Source of the DNA: Romboutsia hominis
Lineage (GTDB): Bacteria; Bacillota; Clostridia; Peptostreptococcales; Peptostreptococcaceae
Direction of reading: 5' to 3'
Assembly: GCF_900002575.1 (NCBI RefSeq)
Contig: NZ_LN650648.1
Coordinates: 1,116,001 to 1,180,000 of the forward strand
Length of the DNA: 64,000 bases
This document shows, piece after piece, positions 6,324 through 62,597 of this stretch. The notes below the pieces were generated by a model. It was not told the origin of the DNA. It worked only from the letters and a program-made list of their open reading frames with translations, and did not search any database. A program made the position numbers and the translations under genes. The number at the start of each line of letters is the position of its first letter. Within the stretch, counting starts at the first letter, position 1.

Positions 6324-8105
6324 ATGATATTGACATATATTTTAAACAGTAGACAAGTTAAGATAATTAATATATTAAACAAAAGTACACAACCTATAAC
6401 TAGTAAGGCTTTAGCATATGAACTAGATTGTTCTACAAAAACAGTTCAAGGAGAAATAAAAGAGATAAACTCTACTTTAGAAAATGTAAAAATAGATTCT
6501 ATAAGAGGAAAAGGATATATATTAGTTGGAAATGTAGATTCTATTATTGATAAAGATGATGAACAAACTAACGTTAATATAGATAGAGTAGGATATATAT
6601 TAAAAAAGATACTACTACTTTATAAAGATAAAACATTGAAAATAGAAAGTTTAGCAGATGAAATGTATGTTAGTCTATCTACCATAAAAAATGACTTAAA
6701 AGAAGTTAAAGTTATACTTGAAAATTATAATTTAAAAACTATATCAAAACATAAGCTAGGTATTAGTATTTCAGGAGATACTAAAAATATAATAAAGTGT
6801 ATAATAGAAAGTAGCTTAAAGTACAAAAACATAAATATTGAAGACTTTTTTAGTGACATTGTAGCTTCAAATATATCTTCAATAAGAAGTGAAATATTAT
6901 ACAATATACATAAAAAACATATAATATTTACTGATTATGAATTTAATAATATATTCAATTATATACTACTATCACTATCATTAGAAGATAATAATAATTA
7001 TAAAGAATTTATAAAAATATATATTAATAACTACCAAGAAAAAATAAACAGTAATTACAATAAAGAATATGAAGAAAAAGTACTAAGCTCTATAGATGAG
7101 TTTATTAAAAATTTAAAATTAGCTACATCTATAGATTTAAGTAATGATAATATATTTAAAAAGTATTTATATAAGCATATACTTAGTTTTTATACTAACA
7201 AAGAACTAAACATAAATACTCAAAGTATAATAGCAAGCGATATAAAGGCTAAGTATCCATTTGCATTTGAACTAGCAACTATTGCAAAAAATACATTAGA
7301 AAAAGATTTAGATATTAAAATAGATGAAAATGAGATTGCAAATATTGCAATTCATATAGGAGGAGCATTACAAAGAACTTCTCATAAAGAAAACAAAAAA
7401 GTATTAAAAGCTATAATAGTATGTGCATCAGGCATTGGAACATCTATGCTTATAAAGGCAAAGATTGAAGCTAAATTTGATAAAAGAATTGAAATACTAA
7501 AAGTAATTCCTTCTTACTTAATAGATTTTATAGGAGTACTTGATGTAGATTTTATAATATCTACGGTACCTATAGATATTAAAAATATTCCTGTTATAAA
7601 TGTATCACCATTTTTAGATGAAAAGGAAATAATGATAATAGAAAAGTTTATAGATACAGGTAAAATTTATTATAATATAAATTTATCTGAAATATTTGAT
7701 AAGGATTTATTCTTTACAGACTTAGATTTTGATAATAAATATGACGTAATAGATTATATGTCTGATAAATTACTTAAAAAGAATTATATAGATGAAGAAA
7801 TGAAACTATCTTATATTGATAGAGAAAAGATAGCTACAACAGAAATTGGAAATATGGTAGCTATTCCTCATGGTGCTAAAGGAAAGGTATATAAAAATAC
7901 TATAGCAATAGGAATACTTAAAAAAAGCATAAAGTGGGAAGTAGGGGATGTAAGGCTTATAGTAATGCTTTGTATACAAAAAGATAGTATATTAAACTAT
8001 GAAGATTTACTTTCAAGCATATATAAAAGAATAGATTCTATAGCTAAAGTTATAAGTATATGTGAATCTAAAAATTATGATAAATTTATAGCTATGTTTA
8101 AATAA
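6324..8105 (+). CDS. PRD-domain transcriptional activator of the fructose PTS operon (MtlR/LicR/ManR type)
   Basis: About 593 residues in the architecture of PTS-controlled activators. An N-terminal HTH (VKIINILNKSTQPITSKALAYEL) is followed by a second HTH (about 90-140). Two PTS-regulation domains follow, the second with NEIANIAIHIGGALQR, whose His is the expected phosphorylation site. Then come an EIIB-like domain (IVCASGIGTSMLIK, Cys nucleophile) and a C-terminal EIIA-like domain (IPHGAKGKV, His). Phosphorylation by HPr and EII proteins sets activity in this family. It sits directly upstream of fruK-fruA on the same strand, which points to those genes as targets. The start is ambiguous: ATG 6324 is close behind AAGGA, and TTG 6330 is better spaced. 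Confidence 0.88.
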   Translation: MILTYILNSRQVKIINILNKSTQPITSKALAYELDCSTKTVQGEIKEINSTLENVKIDSIRGKGYILVGNVDSIIDKDDEQTNVNIDRVGYILKKILLLYKDKTLKIESLADEMYVSLSTIKNDLKEVKVILENYNLKTISKHKLGISISGDTKNIIKCIIESSLKYKNINIEDFFSDIVASNISSIRSEILYNIHKKHIIFTDYEFNNIFNYILLSLSLEDNNNYKEFIKIYINNYQEKINSNYNKEYEEKVLSSIDEFIKNLKLATSIDLSNDNIFKKYLYKHILSFYTNKELNINTQSIIASDIKAKYPFAFELATIAKNTLEKDLDIKIDENEIANIAIHIGGALQRTSHKENKKVLKAIIVCASGIGTSMLIKAKIEAKFDKRIEILKVIPSYLIDFIGVLDVDFIISTVPIDIKNIPVINVSPFLDEKEIMIIEKFIDTGKIYYNINLSEIFDKDLFFTDLDFDNKYDVIDYMSDKLLKKNYIDEEMKLSYIDREKIATTEIGNMVAIPHGAKGKVYKNTIAIGILKKSIKWEVGDVRLIVMLCIQKDSILNYEDLLSSIYKRIDSIAKVISICESKNYDKFIAMFK

Positions 8106-56989: not shown

Positions 56990-58108
56990 ATGAAAAATTT
57001 TAATATCTTTAAAAAAGAGAAAAGTAATTTAATAGTTTTGTTTTGTATTGTAGGTATACTTTCTATGATAATATACTTTGGTATAAATAAAGATAAGGAA
57101 TACACTAAAAATGTAAATTTAAGTTCTAGTAAATATATATATAATGAGAATAAATTAAAAAAAAAGGATGAACCTATAAAGCTTAACTCAGTAATATCTT
57201 TAAGTAGAAATGTATTATCCATGAAGATTTTAGATAATAATATATTACTATTTGAATCAGAAAAGGGCAAAACTGATATAGTATCTATAGATATTAAAAG
57301 CAAAGAAAAAAAATTAATAAATAGCAGTAGTGCTGGAAAAGTTATGTACTATGGTTATAGAAGTATATCTCCAAATGGAGAAGTACTTCTATGCATACAA
57401 GATTATAAAAATAAACCAGTAACTAGTATATTAAACTTAAAAGAAAATAGTTCTAAGATATTAGAAAGTAGGCCTATTACAATATTAAGCTGGGTTTTAG
57501 ATAGTAGTGGATTTATATATACTATAGATAATAGCTTAATTTATTATGATATAATCAATGGAACTAAAAGAGAGATATATAAATTTAAAGATGATGAGTT
57601 TATACATAAAGTCGAATTTTCTAGTGATGGAACAAAGTTATATATGTTTATGGAAAAGCTATTGAAAAATAATCATACAAAAAGTATTTTGCTAGAATAT
57701 GATTTAAAAATGAATAAGTCAACTATTAAAATAAATAGCAATAATATTATAGATATGGAAGTATTCAATAATGGAAGTATATTAACTTTAGAACATAGAG
57801 ATGGAATAAATAGAATATATATAAATACTAAAAATAAATCTGAAGAACTAGATATAAAAAATGTAGAATCAATTTATTTAAATAACAATAGAAGTAAACT
57901 TGTGATAATAACTACAAATAACAATTATGAGATGGAAATAGGAATATATGATGTTAAAAATAGAAGTGAAAATACTAAATTAAGTAAGGTAGGAAATATA
58001 AGTGGAATAACAAGGATAGGTTCTATAAGTATAAATAATGAAAATCAACTTGCTTATTTAGTTAGGGATAAACTACAAAATTTAAGATTATATATTTATG
58101 ATATATAA
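56990..58108 (+). CDS. Membrane-anchored putative beta-propeller protein in the two-component operon
   Basis: 372 residues. A single N-terminal helix (LIVLFCIVGILSMIIYFGI, about residues 14-32) anchors an extracellular domain of repeated beta strands (SISPNGEVLLCIQDYKN, VEFSSDGTKLYMFM, YLNNNRSKLVIIT). These short repeats resemble TolB/WD40-like blades. No enzyme motif is visible. It follows the kinase by nine bases behind GGAGGAG, so it is co-expressed and may modulate sensing or be an effector. The family assignment is uncertain. Confidence 0.75.
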   Translation: MKNFNIFKKEKSNLIVLFCIVGILSMIIYFGINKDKEYTKNVNLSSSKYIYNENKLKKKDEPIKLNSVISLSRNVLSMKILDNNILLFESEKGKTDIVSIDIKSKEKKLINSSSAGKVMYYGYRSISPNGEVLLCIQDYKNKPVTSILNLKENSSKILESRPITILSWVLDSSGFIYTIDNSLIYYDIINGTKREIYKFKDDEFIHKVEFSSDGTKLYMFMEKLLKNNHTKSILLEYDLKMNKSTIKINSNNIIDMEVFNNGSILTLEHRDGINRIYINTKNKSEELDIKNVESIYLNNNRSKLVIITTNNNYEMEIGIYDVKNRSENTKLSKVGNISGITRIGSISINNENQLAYLVRDKLQNLRLYIYDI

Positions 58109-58211: not shown

Positions 58212-58451
58212 ATGAAATCCATAAAAATATGTATAGGAAGTGCTTGCCACTTAAAAGGATCATATGAAGTTATAGAGGCATTTAAAAAACTAATAAAGGA
58301 AAATAACTTAGAACAAGAGATAGAATTATGCGCATCTTTTTGTATAGGAAATTGTAAAGAAGCAGTATCAGTTATGAGATGGGACGGAGTAGTATTTTCT
58401 GTTGATAAAGAAAATGCAAAAGATATATTTGAGCGTGAGTTTAAGATATAA
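58212..58451 (+). CDS. Thioredoxin-like [2Fe-2S] ferredoxin
   Basis: 79 residues. The cysteine pattern CIGSACHLKG .. LCASFCIGNC matches the NuoE/HydC-type [2Fe-2S] thioredoxin-fold domain. It is regularly found next to [FeFe] hydrogenase genes as an electron carrier. It starts the three-gene module with the HsfB-like hydrogenase (25-base gap) and the SpoIIE phosphatase. GGGGAAG precedes the ATG. Confidence 0.9.
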   Translation: MKSIKICIGSACHLKGSYEVIEAFKKLIKENNLEQEIELCASFCIGNCKEAVSVMRWDGVVFSVDKENAKDIFEREFKI

Positions 58452-58476
58452 AATTAACTATCAGGGGGAATAGACT

Positions 58477-60189
58477 ATGTGGTTTATGAGCTTTTCCAAA
58501 GCAAATTGTAAAAATTGCTATGCATGTATAAGAACTTGCTTTGTACATGCTATAAAAGTAAAAGAAGAACAAGCACATATTATAAAGGAGAGATGTATAA
58601 TATGTGGTAAATGTTTTAAAGCTTGTCCACAAAATGCCAAGCTTATAAAATCAGAAGTATCTATGATAAAGCACTACAATAAAATGGGGAAAACTGTAGT
58701 TGCATCACTTGCACCAAGCTTTAGCGCAATATATGGCAAAAATAGCTTAAAAATTCCAACAGCACTAAAAAAGTTAGGATTTAATTATGTAAAAGAAGCT
58801 GTAGAGGTTACTGATTTAGTATTAGATGAATACATAAAATATGCAAATAAAGAAAATGATGATGTGTATATAACAAGCTTTTGCCCATCTATAAATAATC
58901 TAATCCAAAAACACTATCCTGAACTAACTAAAAATATAATACCTGTAACATCACCGTCAATACTACATGGAAGAATACTAAAAGAAAAATATCCAGATTC
59001 TAAAGTGGTTTTTATAGGTCCATGCTTATCTAAAAAAACTGACGCACACGATGAAAAATCTATAAATTCTGTTATAACTTTTGAAGAATTAGATAAGTGG
59101 TTTAAAGAGGAGAATATAGATTTAGAAAGTCTAGAGGATGGAGAATTTAAATATATAGAAGAAGAAAAAAGAATGTTGCCTATAATAGGAAGCATAACAG
59201 ATAAAATAAAAAGTCAGAAACCAAAAAGAACTATAATACAAGTGGATGGAGTTAGAGAGTGTATAGAGGTTTTAGATGAAATAAAAAAAGGAAAATTTAA
59301 AAATACTTTATTTGAAATGACTGCTTGTAGACATGGTTGTATTGGTGGATCTGGTATGCCTGAGGACAATAATAGTGTTTATGAAAAAAAAGAAAATATA
59401 AAAGAATTTTCAAAATACTTAGATGAAAATAAGAGCTTAATAATTGAAAATGACACTTCAAAAAATAAAAACATAAATATATCAATTTATAAAGAATTCC
59501 CAGCAAAAGATTATAAATTAAAACAACCAAGTGAAAATGAACTTAAGGAAATATTAAAAGATATGGGAAAATACGATAAAAGTGATGAGCTAAACTGCGG
59601 TGGATGTGGATATCATTCTTGTAGGGAAAAAGCAATAGCAGTATATAATAATATGGCTGAAATAAATATGTGTTTACCATTTATGAGGGAAAAAGCAGAA
59701 AATCTAACTAGTACTATATTTGAGATGACACCAAATATGATAGCCGTAGTAAATAAAGAATTAGAAATAGCTAGATTAAATCCAGCGGCAGAACATTTTT
59801 TTAATATGTCTAGCAATAAAGCTAAGAATATTCCTATAGGAATGTTTCTAGAAGAAGAAAAATTTAAAAATGTAAAAACAAGTAAGAAAAATATATACAA
59901 AGAAAGGATAATACTAAAAGAAAGTAACTCAACTATAATTCAAAGTATAATATGGTTAGATAAAAATCAGGTATTGCTTTGGATAGGAGACGATATAACA
60001 GAGGATGAAAAACTAAAAAATAAAATAAAAAGTATGAAAATAGATGCTGTTAATATGGCTCAAGATGTTATAGACAAACAAATGATAGTAGCACAAGAAA
60101 TAGCAAGTCTTCTTGGAGAAACAACGGCTCAAACTAAGGTTACACTAACAAATCTTAAACAGCTTATAAAAGAAGAGGAGAATTTATAA
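58477..60189 (+). CDS. Sensory [FeFe] hydrogenase, HsfB-type, with PAS domain
   Basis: 570 residues. Two [4Fe-4S] sites open the protein (CKNCYACIRTC..CIICGKCFKACP). The H-cluster domain keeps all four cysteine ligands: TSFCPS (Cys136), GPCLSKK (Cys183) and TACRHGC (Cys284, Cys288), although the catalytic-type motifs TSCCP and ACxGGC are altered. A four-Cys domain follows (CGGCGYHSCREKA..MCLP, about 374-400), then a PAS domain (about 415-510, FEMTPNMIAVVNKELEIARLNPAAEHFF). This domain order is that of sensory hydrogenases (group C), thought to report hydrogen or redox state rather than turn over hydrogen in bulk. Its stop overlaps the phosphatase start by one base. Confidence 0.93.
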   Translation: MWFMSFSKANCKNCYACIRTCFVHAIKVKEEQAHIIKERCIICGKCFKACPQNAKLIKSEVSMIKHYNKMGKTVVASLAPSFSAIYGKNSLKIPTALKKLGFNYVKEAVEVTDLVLDEYIKYANKENDDVYITSFCPSINNLIQKHYPELTKNIIPVTSPSILHGRILKEKYPDSKVVFIGPCLSKKTDAHDEKSINSVITFEELDKWFKEENIDLESLEDGEFKYIEEEKRMLPIIGSITDKIKSQKPKRTIIQVDGVRECIEVLDEIKKGKFKNTLFEMTACRHGCIGGSGMPEDNNSVYEKKENIKEFSKYLDENKSLIIENDTSKNKNINISIYKEFPAKDYKLKQPSENELKEILKDMGKYDKSDELNCGGCGYHSCREKAIAVYNNMAEINMCLPFMREKAENLTSTIFEMTPNMIAVVNKELEIARLNPAAEHFFNMSSNKAKNIPIGMFLEEEKFKNVKTSKKNIYKERIILKESNSTIIQSIIWLDKNQVLLWIGDDITEDEKLKNKIKSMKIDAVNMAQDVIDKQMIVAQEIASLLGETTAQTKVTLTNLKQLIKEEENL

Positions 60190-61349
60190 TGGATTTTTTT
60201 ATAGATTTTGCTAGTAGTAGCTTAAATAAATATGGTGAAGAATTATGTGGCGATAAAGTTGAGTTTTATAATGATGAAGAGATGTTTATCGCAGTGCTAT
60301 CAGATGGACTTGGAAGTGGAGTTAAAGCAAATATATTAGCAACTTTAACATCTAAAATAGCTATAACTATGCTAAAAGAAGGAGTTAAAATAGAAGAGGT
60401 TGTAGATACAATAGTAAAAACCTTACCAGTATGCTCAGAGCGTAATTTGGCATATTCAACTTTTACAATAGTTAAAATAGCAAAAGATAATATTGCCTAT
60501 ATTGCAGAGTTTGACAATCCTAGTATATTTTTTTTAAGTGATAGAGAAATCAAAAAAATAGAATGGAGTACTATTGATATAGGTGGACGCAAGGTAAAAG
60601 AAAGTCAGTTTAAAGTTCATGAAAAAGATACTTTAGTATTTGTCAGCGATGGAGTCATACATGCTGGAGTTGGAACTATCCTAAATTTAGGGTGGCAGTG
60701 GGAAAATGTAGATGAATACTTAAAGAAAAATATAAATAAATCTATGTCGGCTAAACAAGTAACTGATTTATTATTAGGCGCTTGCGATCAACTATATATG
60801 CAAAAGCCAGGGGATGACACAACGGTAGCTACTATAAAGGCCATAAGGCGTAAAAATGCAGTATTATTTTCAGGTCCTCCAATAGATAATGCTATAGATA
60901 GTAAAATAGTAGATACTATAATGAAGACTCATGGCAAAAAGATAGTATGTGGTGGTACTACTGCAAATATAGTAGCAAGAGAACTAGGTGTAGAACTAAA
61001 AACTAGTTTTGATATTTTTGATAAAAATATACCACCTATAGGTTATATAAAGGGGATTGACTTGGTAACAGAAGGTGTATTAACTATTAAGGAAACACTA
61101 AAAAAGCTTAAAAGAATAAAATATGAAACTAATTTAAACTTTTTATATAAAGAAGATGGTGCATCAAAATTAGCTAGAATGCTTTATGAGGATTGTACAC
61201 ATATAACTTTAATAGTTGGAAGGGCAATAAATCCAGCACACCAAAATCCTGATTTTCCAAATGAGCTAAGTATAAAGCTATATCTTATGAATGAACTTAA
61301 AAAAGAGCTAATAGCTTTGGGGAAAATAGTAGATATAAAATTTTACTAA
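60189..61349 (+). CDS. SpoIIE/PP2C-type serine phosphatase of the hydrogenase module
   Basis: 386 residues. The PP2C-like SpoIIE domain has the metal-binding motifs AVLSDGLGSGVKA, LVFVSDGVIHAG and PGDDTTVATIKA. The C-terminal 170 residues (ILFSGPP..KIVCGGTTANIVARELG..) form a further domain seen in these hydrogenase-linked proteins. The ATG overlaps the hydrogenase stop, so the ratio is fixed and a signalling pair is likely: the hydrogenase senses, the phosphatase answers, typically on a phosphorylated STAS or regulatory protein. No such substrate gene is near. Confidence 0.92.
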   Translation: MDFFIDFASSSLNKYGEELCGDKVEFYNDEEMFIAVLSDGLGSGVKANILATLTSKIAITMLKEGVKIEEVVDTIVKTLPVCSERNLAYSTFTIVKIAKDNIAYIAEFDNPSIFFLSDREIKKIEWSTIDIGGRKVKESQFKVHEKDTLVFVSDGVIHAGVGTILNLGWQWENVDEYLKKNINKSMSAKQVTDLLLGACDQLYMQKPGDDTTVATIKAIRRKNAVLFSGPPIDNAIDSKIVDTIMKTHGKKIVCGGTTANIVARELGVELKTSFDIFDKNIPPIGYIKGIDLVTEGVLTIKETLKKLKRIKYETNLNFLYKEDGASKLARMLYEDCTHITLIVGRAINPAHQNPDFPNELSIKLYLMNELKKELIALGKIVDIKFY

Positions 61350-61378
61350 AGGCACAGTTATGTGCCTTTAATTTATTA
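61348..61378 (+). terminator. Terminator of the hydrogenase-phosphatase operon
   Basis: A 9-bp stem AAAGGCACA/TGTGCCTTT (61348-61356 with 61361-61369) with a GTTA loop and a weak T tail. Confidence 0.75.
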
Positions 61379-61598
61379 TACAAGTATTTTAACATTTCAT
61401 AATATAAGCGCATATAACATAAGTATTAGCCATTAAAAATTTTATAAAAATTTACGTACTTGAAATTAAAGTTTTATAGTAGTATAATTACTCCTTGATT
61501 ATAAGAAAAGTAATTATAATTTTAATTAAAAAAATGATTACTGATTAAGTATTCATATCGGTATAATAGTTTAAACAAATATGAAATGAGGGATGAAT

Positions 61599-62597
61599 TT
61601 GGAAACAAATATTACTAAAAGATTAATGATTAATAAGTTAATTTTACTTATTATCATAATAGCATTTGTAAATATGTTCTCTTTTTTATTTGGAACGGAA
61701 AATACCCTAACAGGGGTAACAGTAATAACAGGTGCATTAATGTTTAAGGATATAGATTTAGGATACAATGTCAAAGAATCTGTATTTATAACTATAGGAT
61801 TATTTACTTTTATAGGAATAGTTACATATTTAACTAGTCAAGTTGGAATATTACTTGGGATATTAATAAACCTTATATCAGTATTTATGGTAATCTATAT
61901 AACATCAGAAAATTTACAAACAAAAGTATTTTTACCATTTATTTTACTTTATGTATTCTTAGATGGAACACCTATTGATGAAACACAAGCTATTATGAGG
62001 GTAGTAGCATCTTTTATAGGTGGAGTTATAATGGCTTTAACACTTTATATAAGTCATTATAAAAAACAAATATCAAAAAAATCTATAAAAGAAGATTTAT
62101 GTAAAGAAAATATAGATTTTTCTAGTGAAAGGTTTAGATTTGCAGTAAAAATGGCAATAGGTATAAGTATAGCAATACTTATAGGGAGGGTTTTAAATAC
62201 TCAAAAGGCTATGTGGATTACTATAGCAGTAATGTCACTAACTCAACCACAACATGAAGATTCAAAACAGCGTATGAAAGAAAGACTTATAAGTACAATA
62301 TTAGGAGCTATAGCTTTTGTTATATTATTTAAAGTATTGGTGCCAGAAAAATACTTTACTTTTGTAACCCTTAGCTTAGGATATATATATACATTCATAT
62401 ACGAATATAAAATAAAGATGTTTTTCGTAGCTATAAATGCTTTAGTGGCATCTATGTTTATATTTAATACGCCAACATCTATAGCATTAAGAATTGGATT
62501 TTTAACTATAGGAATATGTGTTGTATATATTATAAGTAAAGGTGAAGAGGTTATATCTAAAATAAAAGACAAAGAGCAATCAGCTATATTTGAATAA
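61599..62597 (+). CDS. FUSC-family membrane protein
   Basis: About 332 residues with ten or so hydrophobic helices in two similar halves. The second half reads FRFAVKMAIGISIAILIGRVLNTQKAMWITIAVMSLTQPQHEDSKQRMKERLISTILGAIAFVI, which is the FUSC/aromatic-acid-exporter signature. Relatives export aromatic acids or organic anions; the substrate is unknown. TTG 61599 is better spaced from GAGGG than ATG 61593, which abuts it; either start is possible. Confidence 0.85.
   Translation: METNITKRLMINKLILLIIIIAFVNMFSFLFGTENTLTGVTVITGALMFKDIDLGYNVKESVFITIGLFTFIGIVTYLTSQVGILLGILINLISVFMVIYITSENLQTKVFLPFILLYVFLDGTPIDETQAIMRVVASFIGGVIMALTLYISHYKKQISKKSIKEDLCKENIDFSSERFRFAVKMAIGISIAILIGRVLNTQKAMWITIAVMSLTQPQHEDSKQRMKERLISTILGAIAFVILFKVLVPEKYFTFVTLSLGYIYTFIYEYKIKMFFVAINALVASMFIFNTPTSIALRIGFLTIGICVVYIISKGEEVISKIKDKEQSAIFE

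Follow-up and report, generated by a model that had tools for sequence, protein, structure and literature searches.

It is not settled how sensory [FeFe] hydrogenases transmit what they sense; in the literature compared, biochemistry on the H-cluster and the C-terminal iron-sulfur (FeS) cluster has found no output. The subject here is a three-gene module of Romboutsia hominis that encodes an HfsA-like ferredoxin, the sensory hydrogenase HydS (HfsB) and the SpoIIE-type phosphatase HfsC (Table 1). It lies in the window, the whole stretch of 64,000 nucleotides analysed (G000:C1:1116001-1180000), which belongs to a single-contig genome of 3,039,673 bases. Judged by domains, motifs and gene context, the module is an hfsA-hfsB-hfsC representative of HydDB [FeFe] group C3, labelled 'phosphatase-linked (putative)', whose members 'may sense H2 and regulate processes via serine/threonine phosphatases' (PMC5037454). 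The module is widespread and not new, and the route from hydrogen (H2) to a phosphatase is already a hypothesis in the literature. An earlier sequence-only reading of this DNA had proposed that hydrogen level is turned into protein dephosphorylation; the standard C3 reading, the cluster ligands, the maturases and the co-occurrence and co-variation described below fit that idea, and the arrangement itself is no novelty. The best explanation is probably an H2-sensing group C3 module in which HydS controls HfsC through its tail. Beyond the literature compared, the analysis adds a possible docking of this tail on the phosphatase switch, evidence against the default SpoIIAA/RsbV substrate, and the loss of hfsD beside the pairs of the host's family.

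The C-terminal tail of HydS is its most conserved part. Conservation was measured in 48 HydS sequences chosen solely through HfsC, to avoid selection bias. The last ~35 residues, which follow the PAS domain, are almost invariant (KQMxVAQEIASLLGETTAETKVxLxxLK), and residues 531-562 form the best 32-residue window of the protein, with a mean top-residue frequency of 0.85; the same measure is 0.54 in the H-cluster domain, 0.47 in PAS and 0.70 in the FeS domain. The model, at modest confidence, shows the tail as two helices, a long one at 508-546 and another at 551-569, interrupted at the GET motif.

Tail and phosphatase occur together. A search with the last 69 HydS residues finds a match in 107 of 391 Clostridia genomes, and in nearly every case the match closes a frame of 555-615 amino acids, the size of HydS. 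HfsC lies immediately downstream of the tail-bearing frame in 28 of the 29 loci inspected. The C-terminal domain of HfsC is present in 111 of the same genomes; both elements occur in 105, the tail alone in two and HfsC alone in six. At least five of these eight exceptions also carry the pair. HfsC is cut by a contig end in one tail-only genome (G285), and four HfsC-only genomes encode a divergent HydS, its tail recognisable but strongly changed, adjoining an equally changed HfsC. Another of the exceptions fetched has HfsA and HfsC and lacks HydS at that locus.

They also vary together. In a set of 50 HydS-HfsC pairs, the more two tails differ, the more residues 45-80 of their HfsC partners differ too (r = 0.93 between pairwise distances), and the partial r is 0.78 after regression on the rest of the PP2C domain; the H-cluster domain and PAS give negative partial values against the same segment. 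When 7848 HydS x HfsC pairs of 30-residue windows are regressed on the overall distances of both proteins, the tail with HfsC 36-80 ranks at the top. Simple co-variation is partly driven by the four divergent pairs, and the combination stays first without them and without one further outlier. Cubic regressors give a top value of r 0.44-0.48, compared with a standard deviation of 0.11 over all window pairs, and the effect is weak or absent in well-conserved control windows (HydS 371-400, HfsC 21-50).

The co-varying segment of HfsC holds model helices 45-63 and 68-78, which correspond to alpha1 and alpha2, the switch helices of SpoIIE. There the regulatory domain touches them with a long helix (PMC5468089), and coiled-coil linkers play a similar part in RsbU and its relatives (PMC12143880). 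The HfsC model superposes on SpoIIE (5ucg_A, VIA-align) with a Z-score of 21.5 and a root-mean-square deviation of 2.7 over 207 residues, and the five metal-site aspartates (D22, D39, D154, D209, D210) are all invariant in 71 of 71 relatives. Its PP2C fold starts at residue 3, with neither an N-terminal regulatory domain nor a linker helix. Because the tail is the most conserved part of HydS, co-occurs with HfsC and co-varies with alpha1/alpha2, we infer that it docks in trans on these helices. Tentatively, and with doubt slightly outweighing confidence, the tail may be a detached regulatory helix acting in trans on a sensor-less PP2C, so that H2 would lead to dephosphorylation outside a sigma-factor partner switch. 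At its other end HfsC bears the extra C-terminal domain that the sequence-only reading had described: the last ~165 residues have no Pfam, NCBIfam or PDB-sequence match above cut-off, and carry the motifs GPPxD ... CGGT ... PP ... LxTEG ... GxxxN. With the whole HfsC model, Foldseek and VIA-align matches are taken up by the PP2C part.

Several points weigh against HydS acting on HfsC through its tail in response to H2. The co-varying pairs are related by descent, and their correlations may partly mirror clade structure and are not probabilities. One locus (L171, G342:C1:540000-554000, 6496-7948 on the minus strand) has hfsA followed by hfsC, convergent with hydABC-like genes and without HydS at the locus. 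On contig 19 of another genome (G318), HydS is followed directly by HfsD (L164 8891-12378), and HfsC lies ~17 kb from HydS near hydABC-like genes (L177 9005-10171). The redox state of the C-terminal cluster of TamHydS, a group D protein, is unchanged with H2, which weakens a simple electron relay (PMC13104023). The literature search found no experiment in which H2 signals to the phosphatase in any C3 member.

The hydrogenase itself has the makings of a sensor. HydS comprises two 4Fe-4S motifs (residues 1-60), the H-cluster domain (72-291), a C-terminal 4Fe-4S domain (366-402), a PAS domain at about 419-505 and the helical tail (508-570). Pfam matches include Fe_hyd_lg_C (9.3e-53), the FeS domain PF04060 (2.2e-9) and two 4Fe-4S ferredoxin motifs, and the AlphaFold2 model, with a predicted local distance difference test score of 73, matches CpI and CbA5H in Foldseek. 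The PAS domain named by the sequence-only reading is a weak assignment by sequence, its PAS_9 match (1.3e-4) falling under Pfam's own cut-off (22.6 vs 27 bits); its position and predicted order of helices and strands fit. The other features claimed for this protein hold. All four H-cluster cysteines are present (C136, C183, C284, C288), and the loop motifs are indeed altered, with F135, G181 and T282 in place of C299, M353 and M497 of CpI, positions reported as altered in sensory hydrogenases (PMC10055695). All 48 HydS sequences keep the four H-cluster cysteines and the four cysteines of the C-terminal FeS domain, and the position of the proton-path cysteine is occupied by C in 17, F in 14, S in 6, A in 3 and other residues in 8. 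Selection is thus strong on the H-cluster and not on the usual proton path, as suits a sensor.

A check on the maturases, as the sequence-only reading had advised, finds all three: genes for HydE, HydG and HydF lie 11-16 kb beyond the module on its downstream side, and each exceeds its NCBIfam equivalog cut-off by a wide margin. They follow a 473-amino-acid group A hydrogenase that starts ~10.9 kb downstream; this protein was considered as a candidate HfsD and rejected, as it scores as group A. The genome encodes five Fe_hyd_lg_C proteins, HydS included. Besides the 473-residue protein these are a 656-amino-acid group A hydrogenase, a bifurcating-type HydA preceded by hydB- and hydC-like genes, and a 460-amino-acid group-B1-like hydrogenase that falls below the cut-off of its model. 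The last has a TSCCCP loop and lies in an unrelated context, adjoining a polysaccharide deacetylase gene (L009 8811-10193, C1:168810-170192).

A working scheme can be drawn from these parts. H2 itself, or the resulting redox state, would be read at a HydS H-cluster built by HydE, HydG and HydF. Electrons would travel along the 4Fe-4S clusters, with the small [2Fe-2S] protein as a possible donor or acceptor, and the change would be relayed via the region of the C-terminal cluster and PAS into the helical tail. Docked in trans on alpha1/alpha2 of HfsC, the tail would set its metal-dependent phosphatase activity, and HfsC would dephosphorylate a Ser/Thr-phosphoprotein, with altered expression of hydrogenase and fermentation genes as the outcome. 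H2 as the signal, the contact between tail and switch and the direction of the effect are the steps that we infer.

The same HfsC output could follow from a different input, with HydS reading redox or ferredoxin potential: ferredoxin would supply electrons by way of HfsA or the N-terminal clusters, and the H-cluster would do no more than poise the chain. Most Romboutsia loci and hfsABCD operons have a gene for a [2Fe-2S] protein adjacent to hydS, the replacement of the proton-path cysteine in 31 of 48 HydS sequences suggests low turnover, and PAS domains often read redox. Against such a sensor, the four H-cluster ligands, needless in a pure ferredoxin reader, are invariant, and many relatives have no HfsA next to HydS; it is a serious but distinctly less probable account, perhaps a one-in-several chance. 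That HydS is mainly a catalytic hydrogenase, with the phosphatase merely in the same operon, is very improbable. Its hydrogenase domain is complete, and in its first description the hfs operon of Thermoanaerobacterium was credited with the main H2-producing hydrogenase (PMC11837493), but deletion of hfsB raised hydrogenase activity (PMC5707799), and the positions of C299, M353 and M497 are all altered in HydS, as in the low-activity TmHydS (PMC10055695). The co-variation of the HydS tail with the phosphatase also argues against a purely catalytic role, as do the three other group-A-type Fe-hydrogenases of the host.

A third alternative concerns the target. The usual targets of SpoIIE-type phosphatases are STAS anti-anti-sigma factors, and HfsC might accordingly feed one of two partner switches, for sporulation or for general stress, with SpoIIAA or RsbV as the protein dephosphorylated. 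HfsC belongs to this SpoIIE-type PP2C family, and the host has both operons, one SpoIIAA-AB-sigmaF-like and one RsbV-W-sigmaB-like. Their two STAS proteins lie >1.3 Mb from the module, in line with the claim that no phosphoprotein target is encoded nearby, which holds for the flanks examined. Two more phosphatases of the SpoIIE family are encoded by the host, namely SpoIIE and a GAF-bearing PP2C with the layout described for RsbZ of C. difficile (PMC12143880), and each STAS protein plausibly has its own candidate phosphatase already. Further evidence comes from three HfsC-bearing members of the order with small genomes (G165, G183, G185; 98-99% complete), which keep HydS and HfsC, the latter with every metal-site aspartate. 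No stand-alone STAS protein was found in these genomes, and none at all in G185; the only STAS matches in G165 and G183 lie within frames of 769 and 782 amino acids, the size of transporters. Nor does any of the three have an anti-sigma-type HATPase_c_2 match above cut-off; as these are draft genomes, the absences are not proof. In these three the substrate of HfsC is thus probably other than the usual SpoIIAA/RsbV type, and by parsimony this perhaps applies to the host too. A role in the partner switch is accordingly improbable, and the H2-sensing module favoured here probably acts on a substrate other than a SpoIIAA/RsbV-type protein.

The HydS-HfsC pair is widespread. HfsC relatives (E < 1e-60) occur in 29 of 71 genomes of the host's family, with HydS in the same genomes bar one divergent case, and in the host's order HfsC is found in 79 of the 198 genomes, spread over 54 of 104 genera; the nearest named relatives of the phosphatase are those of Romboutsia lituseburensis and R. 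sedimentorum, at 76-77% identity. HydS and HfsC adjoin in the complete loci of the family, and hfsD stands beside the pair in none of 20. Other loci of the order have the hfsA-B-C-D arrangement, with hfsD directly downstream, in 14 of 20. A separate search for HfsD found a true-looking copy (65%) in only one genome of the family, at another place. The order hfsA-hfsB-hfsC was recognised in R. hominis by blastp to the complete hfsABCD loci L045 and L046 and to 14 loci of the order. No hfsD follows this module; the best HfsD-like match in the genome is 40% identical, of partial length and unlinked (C1:169086). The hfsA gene lies directly upstream of HydS in most Romboutsia-type loci and most loci of the order, and not in many other members of the family, and in several lineages the pair stands beside genes resembling bifurcating hydABC instead. 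Since its neighbours are hfsD in some lineages and hydABC-like genes in others, the pair travels with hydrogen metabolism generally, and it persists after hfsD is gone.

Two loci of genus g6 have two tandem HydS genes and one HfsC (L060, 4318-6108 and 8187-9908; L061, 4866-6635 and 8214-9935), and both copies keep the four H-cluster cysteines. The frames of HydS in L109 (10720-12450) and HfsD in L114 (10838-12295) are split in two, possibly by frameshifts in the draft assemblies.

The anatomy of the R. hominis locus is as the sequence-only reading had it: open reading frames and Pfam matches place three genes at 58212-61349, and the stop of the hydrogenase overlaps the start of the phosphatase. 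The hydS TAA (60187-60189) and the hfsC ATG (60189-60191) have one base in common, and hfsC starts -16 to +32 bases from the last base of the hydS stop in related pairs. The ferredoxin has the cysteine pattern C7-x4-C12 ... C40-x3-C44. A promoter scan of the window did no better than shuffles (24 found vs 25.3 expected), and Rex-like operators show no excess in the window and are absent at the start of the module. The terminator candidate after hfsC is also listed on the opposite strand and may be bidirectional.

Table 1. Features of the hfsA-hydS-hfsC module, in positions of the window
Feature	Position	Strand	Basis
HfsA-like thioredoxin-fold [2Fe-2S] ferredoxin, 79 amino acids	58212..58451	+	PF01257 3.7e-8; NuoE/HoxE-like models
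HydS/HfsB sensory [FeFe] hydrogenase, 570 amino acids	58477..60189	+	Pfam, AlphaFold2 model, Foldseek, family alignments
HydS tail motif, residues 531-562 (VIDKQMIVAQEIASLLGETTAQTKVTLTNLKQ), proposed phosphatase-docking element	60067..60162	+	Conservation; co-variation with HfsC
TAATG, overlap of hydS stop and hfsC start	60187..60191	+	Read directly
HfsC SpoIIE-type PP2C phosphatase, 386 amino acids	60189..61349	+	PF07228 1.1e-14
HfsC residues 39-80, catalytic DG then alpha1/alpha2	60303..60428	+	Model helices; equivalent to SpoIIE 628-678 (PMC5468089)
HfsC C-terminal alpha/beta domain, residues 223-386	60855..61346	+	Conserved in HfsC relatives
Possible intrinsic terminator after hfsC, 10-bp stem, 4 GC pairs	61347..61370	+	Pattern scan

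On the upstream side, the window has a two-component pair, a response regulator with a histidine kinase, and after it a 372-amino-acid protein (56990-58108) with no Pfam or NCBIfam match; downstream, the next gene encodes a FUSC-like membrane protein (61593-62597), and a LytTR regulator lies on this side too. Neither the upstream trio nor the FUSC gene was seen to recur beside the module in the loci of relatives, and the module is therefore taken as three genes.

If the contact between tail and switch is real, the output step can be assayed simply, with two proteins and named residues, and the same output would apply to the about a quarter of sampled Clostridia in which the module is found. 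Deletion of hfsB raises ethanol yield in several thermophiles (PMC5707799), which lends the question practical weight.

Known systems resemble the module to different degrees. HydDB group C3 likewise pairs a sensory-type hydrogenase with a serine/threonine phosphatase, and the comparison brought out no difference in kind. The C299 position is Phe in this copy and in its Romboutsia relatives. In the hfsABCD operon of Thermoanaerobacterium, the gene order is the same, HfsB is a PAS-bearing hydrogenase and HfsC is serine phosphatase-like (PMC5707799, PMC11837493), whereas the host lacks hfsD beside the pair and has hfsABC only. In Thermoanaerobacterium, ethanol yield rises, with higher adhE expression, on deletion of hfsA or hfsB, and not on deletion of hfsC, hfsD or the whole operon (PMC5707799, PMC11837493), a pattern that fits a chain with HfsB holding back a step dependent on the genes downstream. 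Ruminococcus albus shows an H2-dependent response alongside a group C hydrogenase, a proposed H2 sensor with an H-cluster, PAS and a putative Ser/Thr phosphatase subunit (PMC6776011); its genes are part of a cluster of eight that also encodes a ferredoxin-only hydrogenase together with an alcohol/aldehyde dehydrogenase, whereas the host module is three genes alone. HydS of Thermotoga maritima, compared by its published description, is likewise a group C protein with PAS and changes at the equivalents of C299, M353 and M497, with Ala at the C299 position instead of the Phe of the host (PMC10055695). SpoIIE, RsbU, RsbP and RsbZ share with HfsC the PP2C core, the alpha1/alpha2 switch helices and the metal aspartates (PMC5468089, PMC12143880). 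Unlike them, HfsC begins at the first PP2C strand, and its proposed regulatory helix would reside on a separate protein, HydS.

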